Shown here one piece after another: positions 29,251 to 47,141 of a DNA stretch of 64,000 nucleotides; the stretch's first letter is position 1, and every line of letters begins with the position of its first letter. The translations under genes and the position numbers were made by a program. This stretch comes from Methylocapsa sp. D3K7 (GTDB lineage: Bacteria; Pseudomonadota; Alphaproteobacteria; Rhizobiales; Beijerinckiaceae). The notes beneath the pieces were generated by a model. The model had not been told where the DNA came from. It did not search any database and saw only the letters and a program-made list of their open reading frames with translations. The DNA lies in assembly GCF_029855125.1 (NCBI RefSeq), contig NZ_CP123229.1, forward strand, positions 1,674,001 through 1,738,000, written 5' to 3'.

Positions 29251-29326
29251 GGGCCGGTAGCTCAATGGTTAGAGCCGGCCGCTCATAACGGTCTGGTTGC
29301 AGGTTCGAGTCCTGCCCGGCCCACCA
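29251..29326 (+). tRNA. tRNA with CAU anticodon (Ile2 or elongator Met)
   Basis: This 76-base cloverleaf has acceptor GGGCCGG pairing with CCGGCCC, discriminator A and encoded CCA (29324-29326). The anticodon stem GGCCG/CGGTC encloses loop CTCATAA, giving anticodon CAU. The T arm reads CAGGTTCGAGTCCTG. A G1-C72 pair and the absence of the three G-C anticodon-stem pairs exclude the initiator. Similarity to ileX-type genes favours the lysidine-modified tRNA-Ile2, but elongator Met is possible. Its 3' end is the integration site of the following element. Confidence 0.95.
29312..29326. repeat. attL core (tRNA 3' end)
   Basis: The 15-bp sequence CTGCCCGGCCCACCA is the last part of the tRNA T-arm and acceptor strand including CCA. 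The identical sequence occurs at 46789-46803. The base before the core differs (C here, T there), as does everything after it. Confidence 0.9.
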
Positions 29327-29352
29327 TCTATTCTATTCTCCATTGATATTGT

Positions 29353-30426
29353 TTAGGATTTTCCGTTCTTTCCCGCACCTGATACCTGGGTAAGGGAATA
29401 GATGTTCGCTTTTCTCCCCGATGACAGCTTGCCCATATTCTCCCTCGCGAGCCGTGCACGATTAGCGTTCTTGGTATAAAGGGACGCCATTTTTCCGCCC
29501 TTCCAGCCGAAAATAGCCTCAAGTGCGGCCTCTGTGGCGCCGTCGTCCGCTGCTCGCGTCGCGGCCGCTTTGCGCAGCCCATGCGCGGAGCCGGGAACCC
29601 CTGCCGCCTTGCAAGCTTCCCGAAACCAGTTCCCAAAACTCTGCTTCGCCATTGGCTTACCTATCGGCGTCGCCACGAAAGCAAGATCCCCTGTCTTGCT
29701 TCCCTCAATGATCTCGGCAAGCTCTGGCAAAATCGGGATCTCAACCTTCGTGCCGTTCTTTTCGGTGTTCACCACGATCACGCCGTTGCGGACATGCTGG
29801 CGACCGAGTCGCGCGGCGTCGCCAAGCCTAAAACCCGTATAAAGCAGGACACCGAACGCCAGACGCTCGCGCGTGCCAATTGGCCAACGAGTTTCAAACT
29901 TGAGGATTTCCTCCTCACTCCAAGGGTGAAATCCCTTTGTACTCGGAACGCGACCCTTGACGCCTTCGGTCGGATCGGAATCCACGAACCCGGCTTCCAA
30001 TGCCCAGCGGAAAAGACCGCGCATCGTTTTGAGAAAGTTGTTTGCAGCGAACGGGGTATCCTTGCGGCGGTCCCGAGCAGCCGCGATGGTCTTGCGGGTG
30101 ATCTTCACGAACGGCTCTTCGCCAGCCAATTTGATGATATTCAGGAAGATATTTTCGCGCTGTTTCTTTGTCGCCTGCGAGAGATTTGCCCACGCGGCGG
30201 AATCCCGGTAGCGAGAGATCAACCAGGCAAGCGTTCCGGTCTTCTCTCCCGCTTTTTTCGGCGTGGGTTCCCCAGCGATTGCCGCGTGATAAGCAGCCTC
30301 GAATTCCGGCGTTCCATATTCCTCTTTGATACGGACGCGCGGACCGTGATCTATGCGCACAAACCAGACGATCTTCCCGTGACGGGTGCGTTCCTTATGA
30401 AGGTGCGGCGGTCGAGGACGTGGCAT
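29353..30426 (-). CDS. Tyrosine recombinase / phage-type integrase
   Basis: This 357-residue integrase catalyses recombination between attP and the tRNA gene. The C-terminal catalytic domain shows LLYTGFRLGDAARL (Arg I), NTEKNGTKVEIP (Lys), SAHGLRKAAATRAAD (HxxR), IFGWKGGKMASLYTK (Trp in place of the second His, then the nucleophile Tyr). An SAM-like arm-binding domain precedes it (about residues 65-160). The ATG overlaps the stop of the small upstream gene. Its stop lies 25 bp from the ATG created at attP (29327), so in the circular form transcription could run on into the nuclease gene. Confidence 0.95.
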   Translation of the reverse strand: MPRPRPPHLHKERTRHGKIVWFVRIDHGPRVRIKEEYGTPEFEAAYHAAIAGEPTPKKAGEKTGTLAWLISRYRDSAAWANLSQATKKQRENIFLNIIKLAGEEPFVKITRKTIAAARDRRKDTPFAANNFLKTMRGLFRWALEAGFVDSDPTEGVKGRVPSTKGFHPWSEEEILKFETRWPIGTRERLAFGVLLYTGFRLGDAARLGRQHVRNGVIVVNTEKNGTKVEIPILPELAEIIEGSKTGDLAFVATPIGKPMAKQSFGNWFREACKAAGVPGSAHGLRKAAATRAADDGATEAALEAIFGWKGGKMASLYTKNANRARLARENMGKLSSGRKANIYSLTQVSGAGKNGKS

Positions 30427-30620
30427 CAGAGGATGATATCACGCAATTCAGGGGCCGTTTTAGGCGCTGCTATTGGAGCATCCGGCTCCATGGGAATTAG
30501 ACTAAAGGTTCCATCTTTCCCAATATTCAAACGGAAAGGAACGCCCGCCCGCTTTCCTGCACGAAGCAGCCGTGCAACTTCGGTTTCCTTAAATACACAC
30601 CGCTCTCTTCTTCCGGCCAT
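30426..30620 (-). CDS. Small integrase-linked protein, candidate excisionase
   Basis: This 64-residue protein is encoded directly before the integrase. Its TGA overlaps the integrase ATG by one base. The sequence CVFKETEVARLLRAGKRAGV followed by FRLNIGKDGTFSLIP resembles small proteins often found beside integrases in Rhizobiales islands. The position and size suggest a recombination directionality factor. No helix-turn-helix is certain, so this remains an inference. Confidence 0.65.
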   Translation of the reverse strand: MAGRRERCVFKETEVARLLRAGKRAGVPFRLNIGKDGTFSLIPMEPDAPIAAPKTAPELRDIIL

Positions 30621-30956
30621 TGTGACTTAACCTTATGAATTAGACAAATTGCATGTTGAGACACGAAAACACAGCCGCACCTCGAAAGCATGGAAAATTA
30701 TTGCTCATCGTCGGGGTTGTCCCCAATTTTACATCACGATTCCGTGATATAGCAAAGTCGCACTCGCAGAGCGGGTTGACGATTGACAACTATTGTCAAG
30801 CTTGGCATGAATCCTGCTCATTCATTTTAGCTTGGTTCCTCCCCAGGCTCATGGATGACTTCCCCCTGGTCTGCAGACCGGATCAGGGGGCTTTTTGCAT
30901 CCGTTGTGCTGTGCGCCATTTTTCCGGTAGAAAGCATAAATCAATCGGGAGCATTC
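30621..30956. promoter_or_regulatory. Control region with two palindromic operators
   Basis: No gene longer than a few codons is supported here. Two perfect palindromes are present: ATCACGATTCCGTGAT (30733-30748) and TTGACAACTATTGTCAA (30783-30799). The second contains TTGACA, usable as a -35 box on the plus strand. A strong intrinsic terminator follows at 30862-30897. The arrangement suggests repressor-controlled transcription of a short RNA of about 80 bases or of the small gene at 30957. No repressor with a matching helix-turn-helix is obvious nearby. Confidence 0.55.
30862..30897 (+). terminator. Intrinsic terminator
   Basis: The stem CCCCCTG (30862-30868) pairs with CAGGGGG (30884-30890), with a smaller inner palindrome GTCTGCAGAC, and is followed by CTTTTTGC. 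It terminates plus-strand transcription starting from the operator region upstream. Confidence 0.8.
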
Positions 30957-31091
30957 ATGTCTGTTGTGCCGTCAATGATTATTCTTATGGTAACGGCATT
31001 GGTTGTATTTCGCCGTGAGCTTACCTCTTGGCGCGTCTCCGGCGCTAAGTCGCGTCCTTGGCATCGCAACAGGCCGCCGCCGCCACAATGA
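30957..31091 (+). CDS. Small membrane protein (44 aa)
   Basis: The reading frame MSVVPSMIILMVTALVVFRR has one hydrophobic helix and then a basic tail ending in RNRPPPPQ. A good GGGAG ribosome-binding site lies about 8 bp upstream. I recognise no family. Because it is short, expression is uncertain. Confidence 0.4.
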   Translation: MSVVPSMIILMVTALVVFRRELTSWRVSGAKSRPWHRNRPPPPQ

Positions 31092-31418
31092 ACAACCCAG
31101 ACAGCAGACACGCCAGGCTGTTGTGATGATTAATAACTTAACCCAAACGGGTGATGTTTTTCCGTATATTTCTCATATGTTAAGCCCGTGCCGCATTTCG
31201 GCATGCTGGTGTCCTCGTCCCCCGTACGGCATCAGCTGCAAGTAAAACTTGATGATGCCCCTGATCCCGTCCGCTGCGTATCTGCGGCGAGGTCAGGGGC
31301 TTTTTTTGCTTTCCGCTTACGCCCGCCGCGCCCGCCACCGTGCTCCAGATGGAACTTTTCAAGCCTTGAAGCGATCAATGCATCATATCGAGCATGCTCG
31401 TAGCCAAGGGACACGTAC
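31092..31418. other. Spacer without a supported gene
   Basis: Apart from the terminator at 31257-31308, I see no convincing gene. A 40-codon frame ending at 31245 has no clear ribosome-binding site. A 62-codon minus-strand frame (31232-31420) runs antisense through the terminator and was not accepted. Confidence 0.4.
31257..31308 (+). terminator. Intrinsic terminator
   Basis: GCCCCTGA (31257-31264) pairs with TCAGGGGC (31293-31300), followed by seven T residues. The interior can also fold (CCGC/GCGG). It lies between two small reading frames and resembles the terminator at 30862-30897. Confidence 0.8.
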
Positions 31419-31505
31419 ATGGATACCAATACGCTTCTTATCATTATAGTTCTCGTTCTGCTGCTTGGCGGCGGCGGCTGGTATGGTCGCGGACGCTGGT
31501 TCTAA
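31419..31505 (+). CDS. 28-residue hydrophobic membrane microprotein
   Basis: The sequence is MDTNTLLIIIVLVLLLGGGG followed by WYGRGRWF: a single transmembrane helix, a glycine hinge and an aromatic/basic tail. An AAGGG site lies 8 bp upstream of the ATG. It resembles the very short DUF3309-like membrane proteins of Rhizobiales, whose role is unknown. Confidence 0.6.
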   Translation: MDTNTLLIIIVLVLLLGGGGWYGRGRWF

Positions 31506-31747
31506 GCCCTGAGCGATAGCCGCACGCGGTAGAGACGATAGTTTGTGGCCGGAGAACGAGATCCCCGGCCGATAGCCAGAAACGCGGCACTAATTCACCT
31601 ATGACAGAGCAATCCCAGATAGTTTTTTATCGCTCCAGCTGGAACCTTTGAAGGCAGTTCAGCGATAACCTTGGGGAGTGCCCTCCGTTATCGAGCGCCT
31701 TGGCCGGATTAGGGGCTGCTCGGCAATACTTGACCAGGGAGGTATCT

Positions 31748-31876
31748 ATGCACCGCTTGTTAGCTTTGCTGTTTGCGGTTTTTGCTTTGGGAGCGTGCGG
31801 CAAATACTCTCAAGAATCACCGTCGGATCAAAAAAATTCCGGCAAATCGTCGGCAACTCTTACGCTGCCCCAATGA
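31748..31876 (+). CDS. 42-residue lipoprotein (entericidin-like size)
   Basis: The N-terminus MHRLLALLFAVFALGACGKY has a short signal with lipobox LGAC, so Cys17 would be lipidated. The mature part is only about 25 residues, rich in Ser, Gln and Lys. A strong GGGAGGT ribosome-binding site precedes the ATG. The size and style resemble entericidins, but no toxin-antitoxin partner is visible. Confidence 0.65.
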   Translation: MHRLLALLFAVFALGACGKYSQESPSDQKNSGKSSATLTLPQ

Positions 31877-31926
31877 GACGAGGGCCATCTAATCTTTGAT
31901 CGGGTCCGCCGCGTTTTTGACGTAAT

Positions 31927-31945
31927 GCCGGACGCAACGTCCGGC
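31927..31945. repeat. Perfect hairpin
   Basis: GCCGGACG (31927-31934) and CGTCCGGC (31938-31945) pair perfectly around a 3-base loop. No T tract follows on either strand, so it may be a processing or regulatory hairpin rather than a terminator. It lies 51 bp after the lipoprotein stop. Confidence 0.5.
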
Positions 31946-32029
31946 GCGGGAGGAAGCGCAAGCTGCGTCGGGATTGGCAAAGAAGCCCTATAAGAGGCCC
32001 AGGTCAAACCCGTCGCCGCCCTGCCGTTG

Positions 32030-32140
32030 TCAGCCCCGCCGCAGCCGGTCCCGCTCGTTTAGTAGCGTCTCCAGCACCCAGCACCAGAATTTCAGGACCG
32101 TTATGCGGTAGCGGAGTCGCAGTCGCCGGTAGAGGGTCAT
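32030..32140 (-). CDS. 36-residue basic microprotein, coupled to the upstream gene
   Basis: The reading frame MTLYRRLRLRYRITVLKFWC continues to a 36-residue end (RDRLRRG) and is rich in Arg, Leu and aromatics, which suggests an amphipathic helix. Its ATG overlaps the stop of the 32137-32637 gene as ATGA. Coupling supports translation, but the function is unknown. Confidence 0.45.
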   Translation of the reverse strand: MTLYRRLRLRYRITVLKFWCWVLETLLNERDRLRRG

Positions 32141-32637
32141 AGTTTATCTAACAATTCAGAAGTTCCGAGACGATTGGCGACATCCAGAGAAAAGAGGTAG
32201 CGCAAGCGCATCTTTTCCATCCCCTCCTTATGTGCTGACCTCCTTTCATCACCTTGCACGATGCGCAGGCCATTGCGAACATTCTTAAGCAAAGCGATGA
32301 TGTCATCATCTTCCACGTCGCTGTGTCCGACAAGGTTGGTCGCATAATCAAGCATGGTGCGGCACTCCAAAAAAGTCTCGGGTCTCTTGTCAATAAGCTT
32401 TCGCAAGATTTCCGCTTTCTCGCGCTCGTGCAAATCAGCGGCCCTGTCACATTCATCATCGGTTGTAGAAATATCGACCTGATAGTTTTTATCGGCATCA
32501 AGCCATTTCCAGCGGGCAATAAGTTGCTGGATTTCGCTGACCTGTTCCTTTGTTTCCGTGGCCGGTGCTTTCGGGGCGGCCTTGAAAGCCCTTGCCTTCG
32601 CCGCCGGTGCTTTGCGTGTCTTCGGTTTCGTGGCCAT
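32137..32637 (-). CDS. Hypothetical island protein, lysine/alanine-rich N-terminus
   Basis: This 166-residue soluble protein has a basic, alanine-rich N-terminal tail (MATKPKTRKAPAAKARAFKA) that could contact nucleic acid. It is followed by an all-helical acidic domain (HEREKAEILRKLIDKRPETF and similar). No family is recognised. It is the first gene of a minus-strand pair with the 36-residue gene. The 216 bp upstream, to the next gene at 32854, hold its promoter region. Confidence 0.6.
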   Translation of the reverse strand: MATKPKTRKAPAAKARAFKAAPKAPATETKEQVSEIQQLIARWKWLDADKNYQVDISTTDDECDRAADLHEREKAEILRKLIDKRPETFLECRTMLDYATNLVGHSDVEDDDIIALLKNVRNGLRIVQGDERRSAHKEGMEKMRLRYLFSLDVANRLGTSELLDKL

Positions 32638-32853
32638 GTGTTACTCCAATTTTTCGGTGGAAAGCGCGTTTCCGCAGTTCGCTTGACGTGATAGTTGGCG
32701 ATATAATTGGCGAGCGACGGGGATGGCTAAGGCCATCTGCTAAACTCAGACCACGTGTGCTGTCCTCGGCGCACCATCAATAGTTACGCGGCTATGCGCG
32801 CGTGATAAGATCGTCGTCAGCCATGTCGACTTAACTCCCTCATGTCGGCACGG

Positions 32854-33117
32854 TTAGAGACGGTCGAGTGTCATTGCGGGCTTGGCCGTCTCGCTCGCCG
32901 CAGCAATGCGCTTGTCGAGCAGGGCGATGAACCCCGTTATGATACGCCCCAATTCCAAGCCCAGGCTGCCGATGTCGTCAACGTTGACATCGGTACGAAT
33001 GCGGAAATCATCCAAGGCCGCGTCGGCCTTCCTTAGACAGGCACGATTGTGGCGGAGCCACCGGGGATTGTCGGTTTGTATTCTGGGCGGTGATTCTTTA
33101 ATGCTTGTCTTAGCCAT
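32854..33117 (-). CDS. Hypothetical island protein (87 aa)
   Basis: This small protein, MAKTSIKESPPRIQTDNPRW..., has a basic N-terminus and helical C-terminal part (GLELGRIITGFIALLDKRIA). No family is recognised. It lies 81 bp downstream of the 33199-33411 gene on the same strand, so the two may share a transcript. Confidence 0.5.
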   Translation of the reverse strand: MAKTSIKESPPRIQTDNPRWLRHNRACLRKADAALDDFRIRTDVNVDDIGSLGLELGRIITGFIALLDKRIAAASETAKPAMTLDRL

Positions 33118-33198
33118 TTGAACATCCTCTCAGGCGAATCGATGTGATCGATGGTTAGGGGCTTGCGAGCGGGTGACACGCTCTGCAGGCCCCGCTTG

Positions 33199-33411
33199 TT
33201 ACGCGTCGCCATAGATGCCGCGCACCTCATCGAGGTATGCCTGCCGTAGCTCGCCCGCCTTAGCCTCGAACTGAAGCTCAAGGTCTCGGAGCTTTGCCTC
33301 GTATCTGAAACCGGCTGACCGGATTTCATTGACTGTGGTCGCCGCCTCGGTGGCCTCAATGACGGCCGTCGAAGGGACGCCAAAAACCTGTTTAATAAGC
33401 TGTTTTGCCAT
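33199..33411 (-). CDS. Small coiled-coil-like protein in a divergent regulatory pair
   Basis: This is a 70-residue protein (MAKQLIKQVFGVPSTAVIEA...) with a heptad-like acidic/basic helix (GFRYEAKLRDLELQFEAKAG). The start at 33411 is preferred over 33483 because an AAGGA site precedes it and the upstream residues are cysteine-rich and unlike it. It is divergent from the ribbon-helix-helix gene, with two palindromes in the 83-bp spacer. It could be the regulated partner of that regulator. Confidence 0.6.
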   Translation of the reverse strand: MAKQLIKQVFGVPSTAVIEATEAATTVNEIRSAGFRYEAKLRDLELQFEAKAGELRQAYLDEVRGIYGDA

Positions 33412-33433
33412 GTAAGTTTCCTTGCAATTTCGC

Positions 33434-33476
33434 CTAGCACATGCTAGTGAAGTAGTACTTACATAAGGTAAGTACT
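33434..33476. promoter_or_regulatory. Two palindromic operators between divergent genes
   Basis: CTAGCACATGCTAG (33434-33447) is a palindrome with 6-bp arms. A second, stronger one has 9-bp arms, AGTACTTAC (33454-33462) and GTAAGTACT (33468-33476), around a 5-bp spacer. Both lie between the starts of the 33411 gene and the ribbon-helix-helix gene (33495), where an autoregulator would bind. Confidence 0.65.
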
Positions 33477-33494
33477 TTGTCAAGGTGCTTGGGA

Positions 33495-33674
33495 ATGAAA
33501 AAATTAAGCAAGCTGCCTTCCATAGAGAACCGAACTGTAGTTCTCTCTATTAAGGTGCGCCCGTCGCTTGCTAAGGCACTCGTCAAGGCAGCTAAGGATA
33601 GCGGCCGTACGAAAGCTAGATTTACGGAAGAGGTGTTAGAGCTTTATCTGCGCGAGTTAGGTGTGCTTAAATAA
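33495..33674 (+). CDS. Ribbon-helix-helix type small regulator
   Basis: This 59-residue protein fits the MetJ/Arc/CopG fold: a short beta strand (RTVVLSIKVRP), then two helices (SLAKALVKAAKDSGRTKARF and TEEVLELYLREL). Such proteins bind palindromic operators as dimers of dimers and often repress their own gene. The ATG at 33495 lies 18 bp after the 9-bp-arm palindrome. The gene is divergent from the 33199-33411 gene. No toxin gene follows. Confidence 0.65.
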   Translation: MKKLSKLPSIENRTVVLSIKVRPSLAKALVKAAKDSGRTKARFTEEVLELYLRELGVLK

Positions 33675-33722
33675 TCGGCGGCCTAAGATCATCGGGAATC
33701 CAAGATAGCGAAAGGCAATGGA

Positions 33723-34109
33723 ATGAACCTCTCCCGCGCTTCTGCTATCTCTGCGACCGTATTAATCGGCGCAAACTTCTCGCCCTGGATCGACGCGGCA
33801 CATGCTCACCTCAGGCAGCGCGCCCAGGATGGTGTCTATGTTGTCGATATCACGACACGGCAAGGTAATTGCGGCAATGCCCTTCATTTGACGATCTCAG
33901 TGTCCGGCGGCCACGTTACTGCGGTAGGAGATACGCCGATAGAATCTAGTGGTCAGATCGACCAGCGCGGGATCGTGAATCTTACATTTCAGGGCATGGA
34001 CAAGGTCGCGTATGCCACCGGAAAGCTTGCGGACGGTTCTGGCTCTGGCACCTGGTCGTCGCCATCTCTGCAATGCGCTGGGTCCTGGCACGCCATTCGG
34101 CATAACTGA
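33723..34109 (+). CDS. Exported protein with two conserved cysteines
   Basis: This 128-residue protein has a signal peptide (about residues 1-28, ending AHA). The mature part is beta-rich: QDGVYVVDITTRQGNCGN near the start and GSGTWSSPSLQCAGSWHAIR at the end, with two cysteines likely bridged. Similar short exported proteins are widespread in Rhizobiales without known function. It lies 48 bp after the regulator gene on the same strand and could be co-transcribed with it. Confidence 0.6.
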   Translation: MNLSRASAISATVLIGANFSPWIDAAHAHLRQRAQDGVYVVDITTRQGNCGNALHLTISVSGGHVTAVGDTPIESSGQIDQRGIVNLTFQGMDKVAYATGKLADGSGSGTWSSPSLQCAGSWHAIRHN

Positions 34110-34292
34110 AGCCGCTCGACCCCAAGGATCCCGGCGTCGAAGTTCATGGGGCGAATGCACAGGGGCGTCAGGGCCAGCAATCATCGTGACCTAGGCGCTA
34201 CAAGAGCCATCCCCTTAATTAAGCAAGGTTCATTGATTCGCCAACCACGCGAATTAGTTAATTCCCTAACATCAAACTTAGGGAGAAACGCA

Positions 34293-34457
34293 ATGGCCGA
34301 CTGCCCCGTTTGTGAAGGCAAAAAAACCATCGAATGCCCAGATTGTAAGGGAACAGGAAAGTTGGGAAGCAGAACCCCAAGCGTAAGGGAATGCAATCAT
34401 TGCAGCGGGACCGGACAGAAAACGTGCGACAATTGCAAAGGAAGCGGGAAAGTCTAA
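34293..34457 (+). CDS. DnaJ-type zinc-finger microprotein (54 aa)
   Basis: The whole protein is made of four CxxCxGxG-type motifs: CPVCEGKK, CPDCKGTG, CNHCSGTG and CDNCKGSG. That is the cysteine-rich zinc-binding region of DnaJ without the J domain. A GGGAGA site precedes the ATG. It would bind two zinc ions and might act as a mini-chaperone or protein adaptor. The frame is open upstream to 34146 but that part is not related. Confidence 0.7.
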   Translation: MADCPVCEGKKTIECPDCKGTGKLGSRTPSVRECNHCSGTGQKTCDNCKGSGKV

Positions 34458-34458
34458 A

Positions 34459-34737
34459 TTTTCGGGCTTTTGCCGACGGGAAGGGCGGCGGCTTGGGCGT
34501 TTCCTCGCACCAATCTAGGAGCGCGTCGGCTTCGTCTGGGGGAAGAGCGGCAACCTCGGCATGATGCTTAAAGGTAAGATTGTCCCGCCGGCGGGACAAT
34601 TCAAACGCGTTAGCTATACTGGCAGCGTTCCGACACGTTTGGTATTCCGGCCCTTCCCAATCCTCGGCCTCGACGATAGCCTTGCGCTCGCCGTAGCGAG
34701 CCTCACCATAGGCTCACCAATCGCCAAGCCACCAAGA
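34459..34737 (-). pseudogene. Remnant of a phage-type HTH/ParB-like gene with internal stop
   Basis: Conceptual translation reads SWWLGDW, then an in-frame TGA (34716-34714), then AYGEARYGERKAIVEAED, later SRRRDNLTFKHHAEVAALPP and DEADALLDWCEE. I recall intact proteins of this pattern, with WW-GDW followed directly by the AYGE block, in Rhizobiales prophages and plasmids. The stop breaks that block and neither a proper start nor C-terminus is present. The 3' end fades out against the zinc-finger gene. Family recognition is from memory. Confidence 0.55.
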
Positions 34738-34772
34738 AAAGCCGGGAACGAAATAAAATGATGATTATGAGT

Positions 34773-35159: not shown

Positions 35160-35163
35160 GATT

Positions 35164-35481: not shown

Positions 35482-35598
35482 TCTTGTCCCGCGTTTCCAC
35501 GACAGAGGCAAAAGAGTAACACTCTTCCCATGGCTTGACGAATCCGGTGCCCGGATGATCGGCCATCTCTTGCTTGGTGAAACGTGCCATAATACCAC

Positions 35599-36486: not shown

Positions 36487-36549
36487 GTCACACCTCAAGT
36501 TAGGTTGGATCGTTTCGGAAAATTTGGAACGCGAAAGCTGTATCCCGCG

Positions 36550-38454
36550 TCAGCCTTGCTCGGTTGCGTATGCACTCGGGCCAAGCCATTGCCCACGGCC
36601 ATCGGCGCCAGACGCGCTCGTGGGATAGGTCGCGGTCGCAACCATTTGGCTCGTCACGACCTGCGCAAGCCTACGACCATCAATGTTCATGTTTGATGTG
36701 ATGTGCACCGATGTCTGACGCGACGGTGGAGGGGTCATTGGTGCGGCTGCACCGTTCCCTGGCAGCGACGTTGGCGAGGGACCAATTTTCATGCTGTTGC
36801 CAATAAGCGGAATCGATCCGGCAAGACTATTCCATGCGCCAACGATTTTGTCGCGAAGCCAGTCGAAACTCAAATTTAGACCGTTGGCGAGCGACTTCCA
36901 TCCATCCGTCAATTTGTGGCCAAGTTGATTCATCAAGTTGTTGATACCTGCAACCGTATCCATGGCGTCCTGATAAAGCACGGTCTTGAAATCAACCTGA
37001 CCGAACACCACCGCAATGCTCGAAATGCCATCCTTCAGCCCGGAGAGGCCGTTTAAGACAGCGGGCCAGTTCGCCACAGCAAGCCCGGTGAGGCCACCGA
37101 GGACCGCACCGCCAGCCATTCCGAGTGGACCGCCCAGCGCTCCCAGCGCGCCGCCCGCGAGTGCCCCGCCAAGCGCGCCCCCGCCCGCGAGGACAAGATT
37201 GGTCGCCAGTTTCGGATTGGCGTTTGCTGCGGCGCCAAGGCTAGACAGCGCACTCGTAAGGCTTCGCAAAAATGGAATGGTGCCTTGAATCATCGGCGCG
37301 CCAACAGCTTCCTTAAAGCTCTCGAACTGCGCGGTCAGGGCCTTCATCGCGATCACTGGATTATTGTTGACGGCGTTTTGATAGCCCTTGTCAAGACCAG
37401 GCACCATTGACGCCAGACGCTTGTCCTTCTCTGCCTGTTGCACAAACTCAGGGTCGCCGAGCATGAAGGCCGCGCGGTTTTGCGATTGATTCGGAAACAG
37501 CTTGGATCGCATCGCACTCGCGAGCGCAGGATCGCCATGTGCATATGCTTCGATTGCAGGCTGTAGGACATTACGCACCCAGCCGGGATCGTCGCTCGCA
37601 TATTTCAGCGAATCTTTGATTGCGCCAATATCAAGCTGCGTCTTGCCGCCACCAAAGCCGGTCTTGTGTATCTTGGTTGGGTCAAGCAGGCCAAGAGTGT
37701 TTAGGGCTTCCGTTTGCTGTTTGCTGAGAACAGCGCCGCCCTGAATAAACTTGTGCAGCTGGTTCATGGTGACGCCAGCCGTGTCGCCCCGCAAATCAGC
37801 AATGAGCGGCAAAAGGTAGGGCGCTGTCTTCGCGAGATCCGTGGTTATCCAGGCCGCACCCGCACGCGTTGCAAAGTTGGAAACGTCGCCTGCTTTGACC
37901 TTTTCTTTGAACAATTGGAGATAAGGATAAAGCTCGCTCAGAATCTGTTGCTGCTTCTCTGTGTCCCCGGTCACGCCCTTTTTCTCAAACGCCCGGAAGA
38001 CATCATAGGCAGATTTATCGCCAAGCAAGGTATCGATCTTAGCGGCCTGCGGTGCAGCTGCGATTGCCGCACTATCTGAACCAAGCACACCACGCAAATC
38101 CTGCACGGTCTTTAGATATTCAACAGCATTGACGGTCGGAACTGCCTTCGCGATTTTGTTGAAATAATCAGCTTGGATACCCAAAACATTGTTAAGCTCA
38201 ATGCCTTTATTCACCATTTGCTGCTGCTGATCGACCAGCTTCATTCCCGCTGGCCCAAACTCTTTGAATGCCGCGACGACACCGAGAGCGCCGCCTGCAA
38301 TACCAGTGAACCCAGCAGTCAAAGCCTTCTGACCCGCCGTCATCGTGTCGAAATGCTTTTGCAGAGATTTGAGCCCGGCTGCAATGGTCGCCAGACCTGG
38401 AGAGAAGTGATCAATTAATCTCAGTTCAATGAAAACATCATAGGGACCGGCCAT
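36550..38454 (-). CDS. Phage tail tape measure protein
   Basis: The 634-residue protein is typical of tape measures that set tail length and help DNA enter the host. It begins DVFIELRLIDHFSPGLATIA, contains a long helical body and a glycine/alanine-rich hydrophobic segment (around residues 425-475) that would span the membrane. The C-terminus carries the common phage block SVHITSNMNIDGRRLAQVV. At this length it would fit a tail of about 90-100 nm, by the rule of roughly 0.15 nm per residue. Its ATG shares one base with the stop of the preceding gene. Confidence 0.9.
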   Translation of the reverse strand: MAGPYDVFIELRLIDHFSPGLATIAAGLKSLQKHFDTMTAGQKALTAGFTGIAGGALGVVAAFKEFGPAGMKLVDQQQQMVNKGIELNNVLGIQADYFNKIAKAVPTVNAVEYLKTVQDLRGVLGSDSAAIAAAPQAAKIDTLLGDKSAYDVFRAFEKKGVTGDTEKQQQILSELYPYLQLFKEKVKAGDVSNFATRAGAAWITTDLAKTAPYLLPLIADLRGDTAGVTMNQLHKFIQGGAVLSKQQTEALNTLGLLDPTKIHKTGFGGGKTQLDIGAIKDSLKYASDDPGWVRNVLQPAIEAYAHGDPALASAMRSKLFPNQSQNRAAFMLGDPEFVQQAEKDKRLASMVPGLDKGYQNAVNNNPVIAMKALTAQFESFKEAVGAPMIQGTIPFLRSLTSALSSLGAAANANPKLATNLVLAGGGALGGALAGGALGALGGPLGMAGGAVLGGLTGLAVANWPAVLNGLSGLKDGISSIAVVFGQVDFKTVLYQDAMDTVAGINNLMNQLGHKLTDGWKSLANGLNLSFDWLRDKIVGAWNSLAGSIPLIGNSMKIGPSPTSLPGNGAAAPMTPPPSRQTSVHITSNMNIDGRRLAQVVTSQMVATATYPTSASGADGRGQWLGPSAYATEQG

Positions 38455-39539: not shown

Positions 39540-39550
39540 TGTTTTGTCCT

Positions 39551-39814: not shown

Positions 39815-39830
39815 TGTGCTCTCCTTCTAT

Positions 39831-41099
39831 CTAATCAAGTTTCATGTATCCACGTGACCAAAAATCATAATCTATCTTCCAAGGTCCCGGCCCCGAGATC
39901 TGAAGATCCGTCAGTGCGTAAACCATCGCGTCCAGCCTATCTGGCGAGTCTTTCGTCCCCGGTTCGAACGAGCACATTTCATCCTCCAGATCGGGAAAGC
40001 ACCCAACATGGTGAACCTTGTGTTGCTCATAAATCGCACTGATCGGCTCGGCCCGAACAATCTTCCCACGGCTTGCATGAACAGCACGTAACGGAACGCT
40101 CTGGTCAACCATTCTCAAGGTGTGAGCGACCATGTCGCCACCTTGGTTCTGTTCGTAAATAATCCTGTCAGCACGGTGCTCGCGATACGCTGCGATTGCC
40201 CTTCGCGCCCACTCAGTCGGGCTGTATTTGCCGGACAGATCCTCGATGATATATCCGTGCCGATTGCGGCATTTGCCTGCGACCACGATGCCGGTGGCGT
40301 CACTCGTTTCGCTGACACTCACCGCAGGATCGATGGCGACAACAATCCGCGTCATCTCCGGTTGTTCGGCCTTGGGGATGCGCGTTTTTTCGATAAGATC
40401 CCTCGACCAAAGCGCACCGGGATTGTCGTCTAAAATATCGCCGTCGAGTTCTTGCCTCCCGAGCCTCGTGCCCTCATACCTCGAGACAATCGCAGAGAGG
40501 AATGTCGGAGCAAGATTTGCAGCATTATCACTGGTCTTGCCCTTCGTGACATGCACATCCGGCCGTGCGATGAGTTCCTTTAAAATCTTTATAGGACGCG
40601 GCGTTGTCGTAATCAAAGCGCGTGGCTTTTTACCCAGCCGCAGCCCAAACATTGACATATTGAAAACATCCATCGCGTTGTCCATCGCAGCAAGCTCATC
40701 CATCCAAATAAAATTATGCTGCGGGCCACGAAGCCTGTTTGGTTCCTCTGCGCTAAACAACGTGATTATCGAGCCATTTTTGAATGTGACGCGTCGCTTG
40801 CTGGGTTCATAGAGAGGTCGATCCCAATCCGAGCAAACGGACAAAAGCCCTGACTCGCCCTCAACCATGGTGTCTCTAACATCGGCTGCAGTCGGACCGA
40901 TGAAGGCAACGCGCCTGGCCTGCTCGCTTATGATTAAAGATTTGACCCATTCGGCGCCGGTGCGGGTCTTTCCCCACGCCCTCCCCGACAAAATAAGCCA
41001 TATATTCCAAGCGTCATCGATGGGCGGCAACTGTTCTGACCGTGCACGAACGCTCCAGTCATCACTAAGGACCTCGGCAAGGCGTTGAAAGATGCTCAT
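39831..41099 (-). CDS. Terminase large subunit (TerL)
   Basis: TerL is the DNA-packaging motor and nuclease of tailed phages. The 422-residue protein has Walker A GRAWGKTR at residues 39-46, Walker B with catalytic Glu in IWMDELAAMD (131-140), and the coupling ITTTPRP. The RNase H-like nuclease domain starts around VVAIDPAVSVSETSDATG and includes DRIIYEQNQGGDMVAHTL. It resembles the TerL of gene-transfer agents and related siphophages. It overlaps the TerS stop by four bases. All motifs are intact. Confidence 0.93.
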   Translation of the reverse strand: MSIFQRLAEVLSDDWSVRARSEQLPPIDDAWNIWLILSGRAWGKTRTGAEWVKSLIISEQARRVAFIGPTAADVRDTMVEGESGLLSVCSDWDRPLYEPSKRRVTFKNGSIITLFSAEEPNRLRGPQHNFIWMDELAAMDNAMDVFNMSMFGLRLGKKPRALITTTPRPIKILKELIARPDVHVTKGKTSDNAANLAPTFLSAIVSRYEGTRLGRQELDGDILDDNPGALWSRDLIEKTRIPKAEQPEMTRIVVAIDPAVSVSETSDATGIVVAGKCRNRHGYIIEDLSGKYSPTEWARRAIAAYREHRADRIIYEQNQGGDMVAHTLRMVDQSVPLRAVHASRGKIVRAEPISAIYEQHKVHHVGCFPDLEDEMCSFEPGTKDSPDRLDAMVYALTDLQISGPGPWKIDYDFWSRGYMKLD

Positions 41100-41797: not shown

Positions 41798-42066
41798 CTA
41801 CGGCCTCGGTGTCTGTGCTGTTCTGCGCGGGCGATGCCACGGGCAAACTTTGCGTGGCTGGGATTCGGTGCCCGGCGCGGTGAAGGGGGTTTTGTGGGGA
41901 CAATCCAAAGCCCCGTGCCGTTTTCGACACGGCTGCGCCACCAGGCCGCGTATTCGGCCGGTGAAGTGTCCAGCAATTCTGCGATAAAACTGATGCCCAT
42001 GCGGGCGATGGTCGCCTCGACGATTAGCTCAACCTGAGCCTTGTCGGGCTTAAAGGGTTTTTTCAA
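41794..42066 (-). CDS. Small protein upstream of TerS
   Basis: This 90-residue protein (MKKPFKPDKAQVELIVEATI...) has the helix-turn-helix-like stretch GISFIAELLDTSPAEYAAWW and a basic C-terminus (AEQHRHRGRR). Its stop overlaps the TerS start. It may assist packaging or regulate the operon. The motif ...SPAEYAAW is shared with the 35599-35811 protein. Confidence 0.55.
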   Translation of the reverse strand: MKKPFKPDKAQVELIVEATIARMGISFIAELLDTSPAEYAAWWRSRVENGTGLWIVPTKPPSPRRAPNPSHAKFARGIARAEQHRHRGRR

Positions 42067-42291
42067 ATTTCATTCCCGATATTGACAGGGCCTATAACCG
42101 TGGCTATAAACCCAGTACGTGTTGAAGCTGAGCCGCACAAAATCGGCGCGACTCAGCGTGGTTAAACCGGCCGCAAAGCTCTCCCTTTGCAGTCGGGTAG
42201 ATATGATTAACGCCGTCAAACAACCGCGCGCTGTCCAGCGATTCGCGGGACTTTGCGTTATTACCCTACTTTAGAAGTATATAGTGTCCCA

Positions 42292-42312
42292 CGCTAATTG
42301 TAAAGGTTAGCG
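42292..42312. promoter_or_regulatory. Inverted repeat in the terminase operon leader
   Basis: CGCTAA (42292-42297) and TTAGCG (42307-42312) form an inverted repeat 226 bp upstream of the 42066 start. On the minus strand a TATATA element follows downstream, so the repeat may be an operator over the terminase promoter. The plus strand has a T run after it. Confidence 0.35.
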
Positions 42313-42328
42313 CGATTTTTCGTTGCGT

Positions 42329-42613
42329 TTACGGTAGGCTACGAGGTGTAGCTGCAGGCATCCGCCAACCGAAACGGCGACGAGCAACGCGCAGGCATCC
42401 GCAGCTCCGAGTATGCAGAGATTGCAATAGACCGTGGCGGACGACCGCCTCCTTGCCGCAGTCGCAGGTGCATTTCCATGAGGTTTTCCCGTGCGCGTCC
42501 TTCCCCGCTTTTTCTATAACCGTGAGCCGCCCAAAGCGGAGGCCGCTTAAATCGGCGCGGGGTTTGGCTCGGGGCTCGCCCTGCTCATTCAAAAGGTCGT
42601 CATAGCCATTCAT
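42329..42613 (-). CDS. Zinc-binding phage protein (HNH/AP2-like C-x-C-x-C type)
   Basis: This 94-residue protein contains GLRFGRLTVIEKAGKD, then WKCTCDCGKEAVVRHGLLQS and SCGCL. That is the short zinc-binding module found at the N-terminus of phage AP2/HNH homing-endonuclease-like proteins. Here only this module is present, without the nuclease part. It probably binds DNA. It lies between the serine recombinase gene and the terminase leader, all on the minus strand. Confidence 0.65.
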   Translation of the reverse strand: MNGYDDLLNEQGEPRAKPRADLSGLRFGRLTVIEKAGKDAHGKTSWKCTCDCGKEAVVRHGLLQSLHTRSCGCLRVARRRFGWRMPAATPRSLP

Positions 42614-42636
42614 CAGTCAGCTCCGGTTATTGGCGA

Positions 42637-43191
42637 TTAGGTCGAGGCTTGCTCCAGCACTCGATAAACGCTGGCTCGGCTCACGCCGGTCTCCGCGACA
42701 ATCTCGGGGATCTTCTTCCCCGCCGCATGAAGGGCAAGGATGCGGGAGGCTTTCAGCATCGCTGTAGGCTTGCGCCCCTTGTACTTTCCAGCTTCCTTGG
42801 CCGCCGCAATGCCTTCACGCTGGCGCTCCAGCATAATCTTTCGCTCGAATTGAGCGATGCTGCCCAAAACATTCAAAATCAATTCGCCGCTGGCGCTGCT
42901 TGTGTCTAAGCCCAGGTCCAGAATTTTGAGGCCCACGCCCTTGGCCTTCAGGCGTTCTTGGATGTCCATAAGATTGGCCATCGACCGAGCAAGGCGATCT
43001 AATTTAGCGACAACGAGCGTGTCTCCCTCGCGAGCGAAATCTAAGGCTTTCTGCAGCTCGGCCCGCTCTGCGACGGATGAAACTTGCTCTGAAAATATCT
43101 TGTCTGCGCCGAGCGCTTTCAGGTCTCGAACTTGCGCCGCAAGCCCTGCGGCCTGTTCGGCGGTCGAGGTTCGGCAATATCCAATCAACAT
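42637..43191 (-). CDS. Serine recombinase (resolvase/invertase)
   Basis: This 184-residue small serine recombinase has the catalytic serine in GYCRTSTAEQ, the conserved LDRLARSMANL with active-site arginines, the long helix ILNVLGSIAQFERKIMLERQ, and a C-terminal helix-turn-helix (IPEIVAETGVSRASVYRVL). It could act as an invertase or as a resolvase of replicated multimers. A series of TATTGAGA repeats lies directly upstream. No invertible gene segment is obvious nearby, which favours resolvase function. Confidence 0.9.
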   Translation of the reverse strand: MLIGYCRTSTAEQAAGLAAQVRDLKALGADKIFSEQVSSVAERAELQKALDFAREGDTLVVAKLDRLARSMANLMDIQERLKAKGVGLKILDLGLDTSSASGELILNVLGSIAQFERKIMLERQREGIAAAKEAGKYKGRKPTAMLKASRILALHAAGKKIPEIVAETGVSRASVYRVLEQAST

Positions 43192-43628
43192 GACGTCACC
43201 TGTCTAACAGCATCTAGGATGCTATTGAGATAGTCTCAAATTTCCCCTGTGTCAATACCCTATTGAGACAATATTGACGGCATCCCACAAGGGCAAGGTC
43301 TATTGAGACATCCGGGCGCGGTGTTGACCAGATGCTGCGCGGCAGACCGGGATAGTATTTGGTTTACCGCCAGGAGCCACAGAAACCGGCCTAAAATTGG
43401 AAAGTCAGCAAAAACGCTGTCTGACAGCTAGGTAGGCACAAACCAAGGCCAGCGGGCTTCCCAGGCTTGTTAATAATTCAACAGATTATGTGTGTAGTTT
43501 GCTAAGCTTTAGCTATACAGTTGCGAGGCAATAGCGCGAGCGAGACGGGCACAGCTCAATTGGAAGGGGAACCTTAAAACCGAAACGGGATTGGCAAGGC
43601 ATACGGGGCTACGGAAATGGAGCTTGCA
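43192..43628. promoter_or_regulatory. Spacer with recombinase-site-like repeats (res candidate)
   Basis: TATTGAGA occurs at 43223-43230, 43261-43268 and 43301-43308, spaced 38 and 40 bp. The last two are part of an identical CTATTGAGACA. The first forms a palindrome with TCTCAA (43225-43239). GTCAATA (43251-43257) and TATTGAC (43272-43278) form another inverted pair around the second copy. This is the organisation of a resolvase res region. Further to the right, GCTAAGCTTTAGC (43502-43514) may belong to the csbD promoter. Confidence 0.55.
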
Positions 43629-43826
43629 ATGGATTGGAATCGTGTTGAAGGAAACTGGAAGCAGCTAAAGGGCAAGGTCAAGGAGCAATGGGGCAATCTT
43701 ACTGACGATGACCTTGATAAGATTGCCGGCAAGCGTGATCAGCTCGAAGGCATAATCCAGGAGCGCTACGGCCTTAATAAGGATGCGGTCCGCAAGCAAC
43801 TCGACGACTGGGTAAACAAGCAGTGA
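43629..43826 (+). CDS. CsbD family stress protein
   Basis: This 65-residue protein starts MDWNRVEGNWKQLKGKVKEQ and matches the CsbD family (with later DLDKIAGKRDQLEGIIQERY). Members are induced by general stress in bacteria, with unknown molecular role. The ATG at 43629 is preferred over 43617 because family members begin with this sequence. It is a likely cargo gene of the element. Confidence 0.9.
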   Translation: MDWNRVEGNWKQLKGKVKEQWGNLTDDDLDKIAGKRDQLEGIIQERYGLNKDAVRKQLDDWVNKQ

Positions 43827-43910
43827 TCGTAAGCTTGCGTATCTAACATTCTTGCATAACCGGGGGCCGCGTTAGCTATTTGTAGTGTGGCCTCCCCCTC
43901 AGTAGCAGAT

Positions 43911-43954
43911 TGGCGGGTCGATTCAGGCCGAGAATTGGGCCGCCCGCCAGTTTT
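43911..43954 (+). terminator. Possible terminator after csbD
   Basis: TGGCGGG (43911-43917) pairs with CCCGCCA (43943-43949), with GGCC elements pairing inside the loop, followed by GTTTT. The T run is short, so activity is uncertain. Confidence 0.4.
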
Positions 43955-44010
43955 GGTGATCGGGTTTTGTTAGTGCGAGGCGCTGCGGGTAAGACCAATA
44001 ATACATATGA

Positions 44011-44088
44011 TAGTACCACTTTCCGAACCAGTAGCGGGGGTTTCTGTAGTACCACTTTCCGAACCAGTGGGAGGCCCACTTTCCGACC
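44011..44088. repeat. Direct repeats (two exact and one partial)
   Basis: GTACCACTTTCCGAACCAGT occurs at 44013-44032 and 44049-44068, both preceded by TA, with a period of 36 bp. A degenerate third copy, CCCACTTTCCGACC, lies at 44075-44088. They are just upstream of the 44126 gene. Such iteron-like repeats may bind a replication or partition protein, or be remnants of a small repeat family. Confidence 0.6.
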
Positions 44089-44125
44089 AAAAATGACGTT
44101 TTCGATCGTCAGCTGAGGTTTGGTT

Positions 44126-44344
44126 ATGGATGAATTTTTGCGCGATATCGAAGAATGTCGAATCCCTGACTTGCGCGCTCAGCTTGAACCGCTGGAGTCG
44201 GGCAAGATACGAATCGCGGAGATTCGAGAGGGCGTCCAAGTCGATACTACGCAGGCAAGAATTCTGTGGCTGAAACGCTGGATAACCGCCTATGAGGCAA
44301 TGTCCTCCAAGATTCGCGCTAGCCTCGGCCTCCCCGCCAAGTAA
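44126..44344 (+). CDS. Hypothetical island protein (72 aa)
   Basis: This small protein (MDEFLRDIEECRIPDLRAQL...) is helical, with the amphipathic run RILWLKRWITAYEAMSSKIR. A GAGG site lies 7 bp before the ATG. No family is recognised. It is followed directly by the 44379 gene on the same strand. Confidence 0.55.
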   Translation: MDEFLRDIEECRIPDLRAQLEPLESGKIRIAEIREGVQVDTTQARILWLKRWITAYEAMSSKIRASLGLPAK

Positions 44345-44378
44345 GTTATCGGACGGCCTCTTTCTTCGGATGCTCGCG

Positions 44379-44738
44379 ATGCAATTGCCCTCTATGACTT
44401 CCGTGATGCAATTCTTACTGAGCCTCGCCGCGCTATTTGTCGCAGCAAGTGCGCTTAATTTCACAGTCTGGACATGGCGTGAGAAGCGCAATGCCGATCT
44501 CGTGCAGATTGGCATAAACGTTTTGCGAGTTGATCCAGAAAAGGAAAAGCAGATCAGCGCTGCACGCGAGTGGGCGCTCAACCTAATAGACGCCAACGCG
44601 GGAGGGGTGATGTTTTCGCCCGACGCTCGGGCGCAACTGCTAAAGAATCGGTTAGAAATTGCTGACGTAAAATGGGGCAACTTTAGTTGGGGCAGTGGCG
44701 AAACGCTTCCACCGAATCCCGCTCAAATTCCCAAATAA
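44379..44738 (+). CDS. Membrane-anchored hypothetical protein
   Basis: This 119-residue protein starts MQLPSMTSVMQFLLSLAALF, with one transmembrane helix followed by a soluble helical domain (INVLRVDPEKEKQISAAREW). Similar one-helix proteins occur in phage and plasmid loci of unknown role. The longer open frame to 44292 overlaps the previous gene and was not used. Confidence 0.55.
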   Translation: MQLPSMTSVMQFLLSLAALFVAASALNFTVWTWREKRNADLVQIGINVLRVDPEKEKQISAAREWALNLIDANAGGVMFSPDARAQLLKNRLEIADVKWGNFSWGSGETLPPNPAQIPK

Positions 44739-44749
44739 TGAAACAGCGG

Positions 44750-45646
44750 TTATTCCGCCGCCTCCAGGTATTCACACGGGTACGGCGTGCCAGACGCCAA
44801 GGTCCAAATTTCGATGATCGCCGGGGCGTGCCAGACCATTGGCGCTATGGGTGTGTCCGGTGCAGGCCGGTGCGGCGCCGCAAGGCGTCTATCCTCGATA
44901 CGCATCTCATGTGCAGGTAGTGACGCAACGCTAGTGACGAGTGAGTTCTCGGCCAGCCCCTTTGCAACATTGGTGTCAGCTATAGGGGTGACAGGTGTGT
45001 CCAGAGTAGAGATACAAGAGTATGCGACGGACGGACCTGTCACCCCCCTCGTTTGGCTATTGGCTTTAGCTTGGCGCTTGTACCATGTTTTGCGGGAAAT
45101 CCCCTCGGCCTCCCAAGGCTTGGTCCTTGATAGGTCGTTCTTCATCAGCCATTCCTCTCTCGGTTTTGAGCCTTGGATCCGTCGAATATTTGCTTTCCGT
45201 TCGGCGTCACGTTTGCGCAGCCACGCCTTTCGCTCGGCTGTTGTTTCGTCGCATGGCAGGATTTGCCATATTTTGAACTCCACTCTTTCGGCGGCGGTTA
45301 GATTGAGCATTTCGCCGAGTTCGGCCCGCGACACCATTCGCTTGCCGAATTTTCGATATGCGTGATCAACACATCGAGCGATTGCCGGGTCGTCGGGTTT
45401 TGTCTCAACTCCGATTTGGCGAAGGTTTCGCCGCAATGAATAATTGGTGAGCCCCGGCCATGTGAACGGGCGCCCTTTGATTGTAAATTTCCCATCGTCG
45501 GCCATCAGCAATATGGCGGCTAATGGGGGTGCCCATTCCCTTGCGGTTAGGATCTCCCCATAGTGTTTACGCCGGGCTGCCGCTAGGCGCCGGGCGTGCC
45601 CTCGGACGGATGTCGCCACTACCCGCCGGGCCGAAGCCTTACCCAT
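44750..45646 (-). CDS. Phage-type DNA-binding protein with central HTH
   Basis: This 298-residue protein has a basic N-terminal region (ARRLAAARRKHYGEILTARE), a central block KPWEAEGISRKTWYKRQAKA that looks like a helix-turn-helix of phage regulators, and a low-complexity C-terminal part. It is the last gene of a three-gene minus-strand operon (46240, 45899, 45646) with overlapping starts and stops. It could be a replication or late-gene activator, which is only an inference. Confidence 0.6.
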   Translation of the reverse strand: MGKASARRVVATSVRGHARRLAAARRKHYGEILTAREWAPPLAAILLMADDGKFTIKGRPFTWPGLTNYSLRRNLRQIGVETKPDDPAIARCVDHAYRKFGKRMVSRAELGEMLNLTAAERVEFKIWQILPCDETTAERKAWLRKRDAERKANIRRIQGSKPREEWLMKNDLSRTKPWEAEGISRKTWYKRQAKANSQTRGVTGPSVAYSCISTLDTPVTPIADTNVAKGLAENSLVTSVASLPAHEMRIEDRRLAAPHRPAPDTPIAPMVWHAPAIIEIWTLASGTPYPCEYLEAAE

Positions 45647-45899
45647 TACCGCGCGGCCGCCGTTTGGCTCGCGGTAATGTCCGCCTAACCCGTGCCGGGG
45701 AGATGCCCATGGCCAGAAGGTTGTCGCAAGACTGGTGTAGCCAGGTTAGATCTGCATCAGAGACAACTCCTTTGCTTTTGAATCCGACGACCAAGTTATG
45801 AAGTCTTTGCTTTTCACTGAAAGTGAAAACATCATAACAGCGGTCACGAACGGAATCGATCAGTTGCCACATGTCTCGTGCGGGCATAGGAACACTCAT
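45639..45899 (-). CDS. Hypothetical protein in the three-gene operon
   Basis: This 86-residue protein (MSVPMPARDMWQLIDSVRDR...) contains two short helical repeats and a basic tail (RRTLPRAKRRPRGNG). It overlaps the next gene by 8 bases and the preceding one by 4. No family is recognised. Confidence 0.5.
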   Translation of the reverse strand: MSVPMPARDMWQLIDSVRDRCYDVFTFSEKQRLHNLVVGFKSKGVVSDADLTWLHQSCDNLLAMGISPARVRRTLPRAKRRPRGNG

Positions 45900-46240
45900 T
45901 GCCGCGACTCCTTACGGAGTGCGGACAAGCGTTCGGCATCAGCAGCAACCAATTCCTTGGCCGACTCTGAGACCGCTACCCAATAGGCTCGAACTCGCCG
46001 AAGCGCGTAGATCAGCCCAGCAGGATCGCCAGCCTCATGCATGGCGGCAGCCGCGTTGAGCATCGCCCCCATTGCATTAATGTTGGGGCCAATGTCATCG
46101 AAGAGTTGATCTATTTTTGCTTGCGCTGTTTCGAATTTTTCGATAGTGGTTTGTGTGTCAGTGCTGCAAATCAATGTACCTAAATCAGAGCCCGGGGCGC
46201 CTGCCAGCGCAGCCGGGCTTTCTACTTCTAAAACATCCAT
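45896..46240 (-). CDS. Helical hypothetical protein, first gene of the operon
   Basis: This 114-residue protein (MDVLEVESPAALAGAPGSDL...) is helical with a long acidic run (TTIEKFETAQAKIDQLFDDI) and ends SALRKESRQ. It is the first gene after the spacer behind the nuclease, on the same strand. No family is recognised. Confidence 0.5.
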   Translation of the reverse strand: MDVLEVESPAALAGAPGSDLGTLICSTDTQTTIEKFETAQAKIDQLFDDIGPNINAMGAMLNAAAAMHEAGDPAGLIYALRRVRAYWVAVSESAKELVAADAERLSALRKESRQ

Positions 46241-46351
46241 ATTTATTCACCTTAAATCATCGCGCTTTTCCTTGGGGTAAAAGCCTCCATGCCGCGTGCC
46301 TTGGATGCACGGCATGGAGGCGCTCTTAGCGGGGGACCGGCCGCCGCTAAT

Positions 46352-46803
46352 TCAGTCGATGGGGGATGGCATTCCATGCACAGTCGCAGCGGCAATTTGA
46401 GCTGCGAGACGCAAGGGCAGGATTACAAGCGCGTCGCGCCGGTCTGCTTTGACGACCAGCACGTCGCGATTTTCTAGCCATGCGTAGAGTTGCGAGAATC
46501 CAGAGGCTCTGGCCTTTGCCTCAATGCAGATATCGCGGCCAAGAACTGGGACCGTCAGGTCGCCAAGGTATGAACCTCCGGCTGCGCCCGACAACGGCAC
46601 CCGTTCAGCATCGAGGCTGTGTGCTTGCAATAGGCGGACAATGGCCCGTTCGAGGCGATTGCCCTTGTCGCGTGAAGCCTTGCCGCCACGAGGTGCGGGA
46701 GGCGCCGGAAATAGCCTTTTGTTATCAGAAGTGCTTAATTCGCCCGCACCTTGCGGAAGCGCATTGTTTTCACTAGATTTTTCTAGATCTGCCCGGCCCA
46801 CCA
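46352..46803 (-). CDS. PD-(D/E)XK-like nuclease, start completed only at attP
   Basis: The coding part encodes about 150 residues. The nuclease core shows GNRLERAIVRLLQ (Glu), GGSYLGDLTVPVLG (Asp) and CIEAKARASGF (ExK), a layout of Holliday-junction-resolvase-like or VRR-type enzymes. The frame is open through attR into the flank to 47005 without a ribosome-binding site. The only in-element start candidates are GTG codons in the att core (46804-46799). In the excised circle, T29327 next to the core creates an in-frame ATG with GGAG 10 bp upstream, giving a 150-residue protein. Confidence 0.75.
46789..46803. repeat. attR core
   Basis: CTGCCCGGCCCACCA is identical to attL (29312-29326). To the right the host sequence CTAAAATCAAGG resumes. 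This copy lies inside the reading frame of the nuclease gene. Confidence 0.9.
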
Positions 46804-47099: not shown

Positions 47100-47141
47100 A
47101 ATTCATCCTTTCGGCTGGTTTTTCGCGGATGGAGAACCGTC

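Follow-up and report, generated by a model that had tools for sequence, protein, structure and literature searches.

The 64,000-nucleotide stretch of Methylocapsa sp. D3K7 analysed here (contig NZ_CP123229.1, positions 1,674,001 to 1,738,000; the window, to whose numbering all coordinates refer) carries a 17.5-kb phage-like element, inserted at the 3' end of a tRNA-Met gene and bounded on both sides by a 15-bp core. One of its genes, for a predicted nuclease, is fused in frame to the phage attachment site (attP) of the element and probably started by it, so that its expression would be coupled to excision. In the mechanism we propose, the integrase (int) would recombine at the tRNA 3' end. The nuclease gene is joined in frame to attP, whose int side would supply its ribosome-binding site (RBS) and start codon; the core and the P' arm make up its first ~39 codons. 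In phage or circular DNA, a candidate excisionase gene (xis), int and the nuclease could form one transcription unit with a good start. Integration would cut off the RBS, the ATG and the transcription unit, leaving a GTG without a good RBS beside host DNA, and because the RBS and ATG would be lost in this way, the nuclease would be produced along with the integrase, chiefly after excision or during infection. The features concerned are the following (att, attachment site; attL and attR, its left and right copies in the integrated state).

29251..29326, plus strand: tRNA-Met (CAT), predicted tRNA and integration target, its 3' end rebuilt at attL
29312..29326, plus strand: att core, left copy (attL), equal to the 3' end of tRNA-Met
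29327, minus strand: base A (T on the plus strand) that completes an ATG with the TG at 46803-46802 in the circle
29338..29341, minus strand: GGAG, Shine-Dalgarno (SD)-like, lying 10 nt ahead of the attP ATG, on its int side
29353..30426, minus strand: tyrosine integrase, 357 aa, uninterrupted frame (PF00589 E 1e-16, phrog_1 E 2e-41)
29372..29379, minus strand: GGTGCGGG, putative integrase arm site on the int side (P arm), a motif near the int 3' ends of many relatives
46352..46804, minus strand: nuclease frame as read from attP or attR, 150 codons plus stop, the first ~39 codons being attP
46502..46675, minus strand: PDDEXK_15 / Holliday junction resolvase-like domain, residues 44-101, from profile matches
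46692..46699, minus strand: CCCGCACC, second putative arm site within the P' arm, at codons 36-38 of the nuclease frame
46743..46750, minus strand: GGTGCGGG, first putative arm site within the P' arm, at codons 19-21 of the nuclease frame
46789..46803, plus strand: att core, right copy (attR)

The predicted circle junction

The 15-bp core, CTGCCCGGCCCACCA, is the longest word common to both element ends (29312-29326 and 46789-46803) and the sole match of at least 12 bp to the int end within the 32 kb searched. The integrase adjoins the left element end and points at tRNA-Met. When position 46803 is joined to 29327, the minus strand reads GGAGAATAGAATAG-ATG-GTG-GGC-CGG-GCA, in frame with the nuclease open reading frame (ORF) that ends at 46352. 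The predicted circle thus has, on one strand, the int stop codon (29355-29353), 25 nt containing GGAG, the ATG and the nuclease. An initial annotation of this DNA had described the same ATG, a distance of 25 nt between it and the int stop, and a dead end of 14 codons behind it at attL. The reconstructed junction bears out the ATG and its frame, the spacing is as described, and at attL the ATG opens 14 codons followed by a stop (read by eye). The observation made in that annotation is confirmed overall; the interpretation placed on it is partly supported, as set out below.

At attR, the A of the circle is replaced by a G (46804), so that an in-frame GTG stays there. The region from the core to the nuclease domain holds no ATG, GTG or TTG. 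For the attP ATG the predicted anti-SD pairing is -6.4 kcal/mol, a strength that is not rare (12% of shuffled upstream stretches equal it), as compared with -2.1 for GTG 46804 and -3.6 for TTG 46813, which has AAGG 9 nt upstream. Our prediction is hence that the nuclease has a good start only in the circle, not that it has a start only in the circle.

The N-terminus of the nuclease as attP sequence

Integrase relatives at E <= 1e-40 were found in 67 of 298 genomes from the same family, its own among them; a looser cut gave 25 phage records, and from viral contigs 80 of 228 stretches were kept. A pair of att cores was found in 11 of the 19 elements examined, the window included, and the eight elements without a clear pair were left out of the attP comparison. 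In 10 of these 11 the core is the 3' end of a predicted tRNA next to int, none being predicted nearby for G264a, and across elements the target tRNAs are Met, Leu, Cys, Arg, Tyr, Val and Asn. Many relatives share a common attP geometry, in which the int stop is followed by the core TGG, ~54 nt, GGTGCGGG or a variant arm, 41-43 nt and an inverted arm; some have other arms, or none found by the script. The element in the window belongs to this family, having both the geometry and a related, uninterrupted integrase that converges on a tRNA 3' end. The arm pattern alone was rejected as a specific marker: it matched 39 of the 298 genomes, many by chance, and a reversed control matched too. Its matches were retained only if the spacer fitted the consensus (32 rows).

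A peptide model was built from 19 attPs whose first 36 codons contain no stop, the window and the viral contig L228 (see below) being left out. Its match to the N-terminal extension of the window nuclease scores 51.9 bits (E 6e-15); among 2560 shuffles the highest score was 8.4 bits. On the evidence of this match, the first ~39 nuclease codons consist of the core and P' arm of an attP that belongs to a widespread family of tRNA-targeting integrases. The attP core lies at the start of an ORF of the element, the mark of attP-split element genes.

The nuclease domain and its homologues

The identity of the protein as a nuclease or resolvase, proposed in the initial annotation, agrees with its profile matches: PF24608 (PDDEXK_15; 30.3 bits, above the curated cut-off of 27), phrog_244 ('RusA-like Holliday junction resolvase', E 7e-16) and the Protein Data Bank entry 7bgs (E 1e-14 with the A4 profile), which bears the name Holliday junction resolvase. 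There was no NCBIfam match. A single-sequence scan of viral sequences with the nuclease gave no hit, and plasmids gave none. Resolution of Holliday junctions may be its activity. Residue 2 of 7bgs, which we take to be a Thermus phage protein, aligns to residue 44 of the window nuclease, and the nuclease family proper begins at residue ~43. A first structure model was poor (predicted local distance difference test score, pLDDT, 49.6) and a deeper one modest (63.6), with residues 1-43 as coil.

The homologues considered are the 120 listed out of 1410. In other contexts the protein starts at the domain (L008, L009, L010, L011 and L114), in some cases with an evident SD; L113 has the same sequence as L008 and is not counted separately. 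Many PDDEXK_15 homologues of ~147-153 aa (among P0003-P0116) carry a variable N-terminal extension of ~40 aa that is unlike this attP family.

The nearest homologue among the matches listed, P0002 (73%), starts M-V-G and has an extension that aligns to that of the window nuclease with a score of 32, reached by 0 of 5000 shuffles. Thirty-four other ~150-aa homologues reach a best score of 2 against the window extension, and the idea that the whole ~150-aa class is fused to attP is not supported, these 34 PDDEXK_15 homologues being unaligned to it. On the question, raised in the initial annotation, whether homologues share this start, the outcome is divided: P0002 does, but the five proteins above and the class of ~110-120 aa begin further in, with a start of their own.

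Recurrence in relatives

Related phages point to more than one origin of the layout. It is found with a different nuclease-type domain in L228 (IMGVR_UViG_3300037424_000186), where attP lies inside the contig. AGGAG stands 8 nt upstream of the attP ATG at the core, and a 193-aa ORF crosses the P' arm and continues into a MUG113 domain (PF13455 E 4e-7). Two relatives of this protein, P0121 (82%) and P0128 (45%), begin MVGK/MVGE. They score 18.7 and 48.3 bits, respectively, with the attP peptide model, and among the 128 database proteins listed only these two exceed shuffles. Six further relatives, P0122-P0127, have a different, conserved N-terminus. Because P0121 and P0128 match the attP profile and these six do not, the MUG113 enzyme appears to exist both with and without an attP start, and the attP start appears to have survived wide divergence, to 45% identity. 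We infer an attP context for P0002, P0121 and P0128 from their sequences, the M of a database protein being read as an ATG start in view of other listed proteins that are written with V.

Three of the four annotated phages inspected carry a nuclease gene directly upstream of int (MUG113 in Pam5, HNH in MW202613 and phi2LM21); in Pan3 none is annotated at that place. In the window and in L228 the nuclease lies beyond attP, and int and nuclease would therefore be neighbours only in phage or circular DNA. One may go further and regard attP as a portable translational start module, consisting of an int-side RBS, a core ATG and an open P' arm, which became fused to PDDEXK_15 and MUG113 domains and from which the nucleases would be made in phage or circular DNA and not in the prophage. 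We put this joint claim forward tentatively, as a possibility that we would not quite call probable.

Other arrangements at related attachment sites were seen as well. In L070 (MW202613, 7101-7454), an annotated 117-aa gene takes its AAGGAG and GTG from the int side of attP, and its frame crosses the core and P' arm; integration would decapitate it. The G114 attP (L109/L110) has the same RBS context (ACAAGGAGTTAAG), with AAGGAG-ATG 5 nt before the core TGG and a 69-codon frame through the P' arm. In L045/L097 (G264:C38) and, by eye, in L046, the integrase frame itself crosses the core, and integration would alter the integrase C-terminus in a manner like that of phage Mx8. In L215/L155 an ATG within the P' arm opens a GIY-YIG-like frame (by eye) that differs from the frame of the core ATG.

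Alternative explanations

Several results count against an attP-started, excision-coupled nuclease gene, and they bear on chance, on the integrity of the element and on the starts at attR. We compared 39 attPs, 11 reconstructed from prophages and 28 from phage contigs or records; duplicate IMG/VR copies (L210, L225 and L264) and attL-type loci with a tRNA after int were left out, and several cores were picked by eye (e.g. L207, L243 and L253). The base before TGG gives ATG in 17 of them, GTG in 9, TTG in 9 and CTG in 4. Of the three frames, that of the core stays open for 38 codons or more in 21 of the 39, and the remaining two do so in 8 and 7. Column shuffles reproduce this openness over the first 17 codons (27 of 39 observed and 25.8 expected) and come near it over 36 codons (18 of 36 observed and 13.8 expected, P for stops 0.14), for which reason an open frame through attP was rejected as coding evidence. 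The open core frame is therefore inherited from the attP geometry and is weak evidence alone, and a single in-frame fusion is unsurprising. By rough arithmetic (17/39 x ~1/2 x 1/3), an attP ATG in frame would arise by chance in roughly 7% of elements. ORFs that are preceded by an SD and cross attP number 8 of 37 (window excluded; null 3.5, P 0.01), the cuts of -6 kcal and 40 codons having been selected after the data were seen and L266 having been dropped along with the window. This excess, which fades at -7 kcal and 40 codons (3 of 37, P 0.06-0.23), depends on the cut and is suggestive. Recurrence of the layout in L228, P0121/P0128 and P0002 argues, at the level of sequence, that it stands above coincidence.

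That recurrence has its own counterweights. P0002 scores 7.2 bits against the arm model, which is shuffle level; its arms, if they are arms, would therefore be of another type. A search with residues 1-40 of L228 alone found nothing, and since it also missed P0121 and P0128 it is insensitive and says little. The initial annotation had proposed to look for related elements whose attP gives an ATG in frame with the nuclease. L228 has one with MUG113; the nuclease of the window was found at attP in no other element among L117-L269 and four phage loci; a C-terminal PDDEXK_15 remnant upstream of int in L220 is the sole exception among the loci searched.

The nuclease could be a decapitated leftover, which lost its own start when attP was acquired and whose ATG is a by-product of the geometry, that is, a cryptic pseudogene in a defective prophage. 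The geometry-driven frame, the 17 ATGs among 39 attPs and the relatives that have their own start elsewhere all fit this explanation. So does the state of the element. Portal, capsid and lysis families were not found among the ORFs scanned, not every ORF having been run against both libraries, and because of this the element is probably defective or a satellite; a tailed prophage that is complete would also have a portal, a major capsid protein, head-tail proteins and lysis genes, whereas a terminase and a tape measure were found here. Against the excision-coupled reading it also counts that no clean empty site (attB) was shown among the 15 genus genomes compared, since the left flank matches 13 of them and the right flank 8 (its own included, the others partial and weak). 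Conservation among 77 homologues reaches at least 90% in 56 columns, and the nuclease departs from four of these (at K42, S63, T141 and V142), as a leftover might. It keeps the other 52, however, and its frame is uninterrupted; the aligned M-V-G extension is kept in P0002, and among the MUG113 proteins this design persists down to 45% identity. We consider a leftover unlikely for these reasons.

Alternatively, the nuclease may be expressed in both states, from GTG 46804, TTG 46813 or as a 217-aa host fusion at attR and from the ATG in the circle. The frame at attR is indeed open into host DNA, with in-frame GTGs at 46804 and 46801 and further starts in host DNA at TTG 46813, TTG 46927, ATG 46930 and TTG 47005. 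The distant TTG 47005 has a predicted SD pairing of -6.2 kcal, near the -6.4 of the attP ATG. A 217-aa form of the nuclease, the host chimera P0001, stands in the protein database. The initial annotation was right that GTG codons are available at the core in the integrated state, but its statement that the integrated frame has no ATG is too strong in view of ATG 46930 and the TTGs in frame. Its statement that no RBS is left agrees with the weak SD at the nearest attR starts, though not with the pairing at TTG 47005, and its claim that the start codon is created only upon circularisation is, as worded, unsupported, in view of the GTG and other starts kept at attR. Expression in both states nevertheless seems quite improbable to us: the attR starts nearest the core have a weak SD, a crude scan for sigma-70 sites alone gave no promoter-like site in 46200-47300, and a 62-aa ORF, perhaps a gene and perhaps not, lies on the strand opposite the host part.

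Comparison with known systems

Attachment sites that split genes of their own element are already known, as is expression coupled to excision. In mycobacteriophage BPs, attP lies in the repressor gene and integration removes 33 C-terminal residues, yielding a stable, active repressor (PMC4557955). BPs and the present element have in common an attP inside an element gene, the product of which integration changes in BPs and would change here; BPs loses C-terminal residues, whereas here the 5' end, RBS and start codon of the nuclease would be removed (PMC4557955). Mx8 is likewise a bacterial phage with attP within a coding sequence altered by integration, but there int gains a new 3' end and here the start of a different gene is concerned (PMC6070905, PMC4383910). 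The suicidal integrases of SSV type share a gene split by the element's own attP and intact only in the free form, in an archaeal system in which the integrase itself is split (PMC8371274). Genes of Tn916 are expressed through the joined ends only after excision; a promoter reads across the junction there, and the account of it in PMC11658703 mentions no supplied start codon. In HK022/torS, recombination at att also changes what drives a neighbouring gene, although it is a host gene that is turned on by a prophage promoter in the integrated state (PMC6814406). Sib control of lambda int is mentioned in PMC6379469.

What would be new here is that recombination supplies the RBS, the start codon and the first ~39 codons of a nuclease, and does so for two unrelated nuclease-type domains. 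No report of an attP that supplies the start codon of an element's own gene was found in the full-text collection searched, most subscription journals lying outside it. If true, the arrangement would provide excision-coupled control without a regulator, in which recombination itself supplies or removes the ribosome site, the start codon and the first ~40 residues. In the lysogen a DNA-cutting enzyme would thereby be silent, and free DNA would bring it together with the integrase. The starts of such prophage genes may be miscalled by gene callers, as in the 217-aa host chimera of the database, and a sequence rule is gained for finding further attP-started genes.

Other genes of the element

Further features of the element, all on the minus strand, are these.

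30426..30620: 64-aa ORF before int, a xis candidate by position alone
36550..38454: tape-measure-like protein, from a profile match
39831..41099: terminase large subunit, from profile matches
45896..46240: 114-aa ORF after the nuclease, with its own SD-like site (-6.9)

The initial annotation had proposed a xis upstream of int. A short ORF is present at the right place, but it has no family match in the profile-library scans, NCBIfam included, and shows 28% identity over 39 aa to its Pam5 counterpart. Before this ORF one promoter-like site was found (30755-30726), with 1.3 expected by chance. A terminator-like hairpin of 12 pairs on the plus strand (30862-30890) separates the int genes from the remaining element. 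The element also contains a small protein with weak DnaJ-zinc-finger-like matches below cut-offs (34146-34457), a serine resolvase/invertase-like gene (42637-43191; PF00239 E 3e-39) and a CsbD-like protein (43617-43826).

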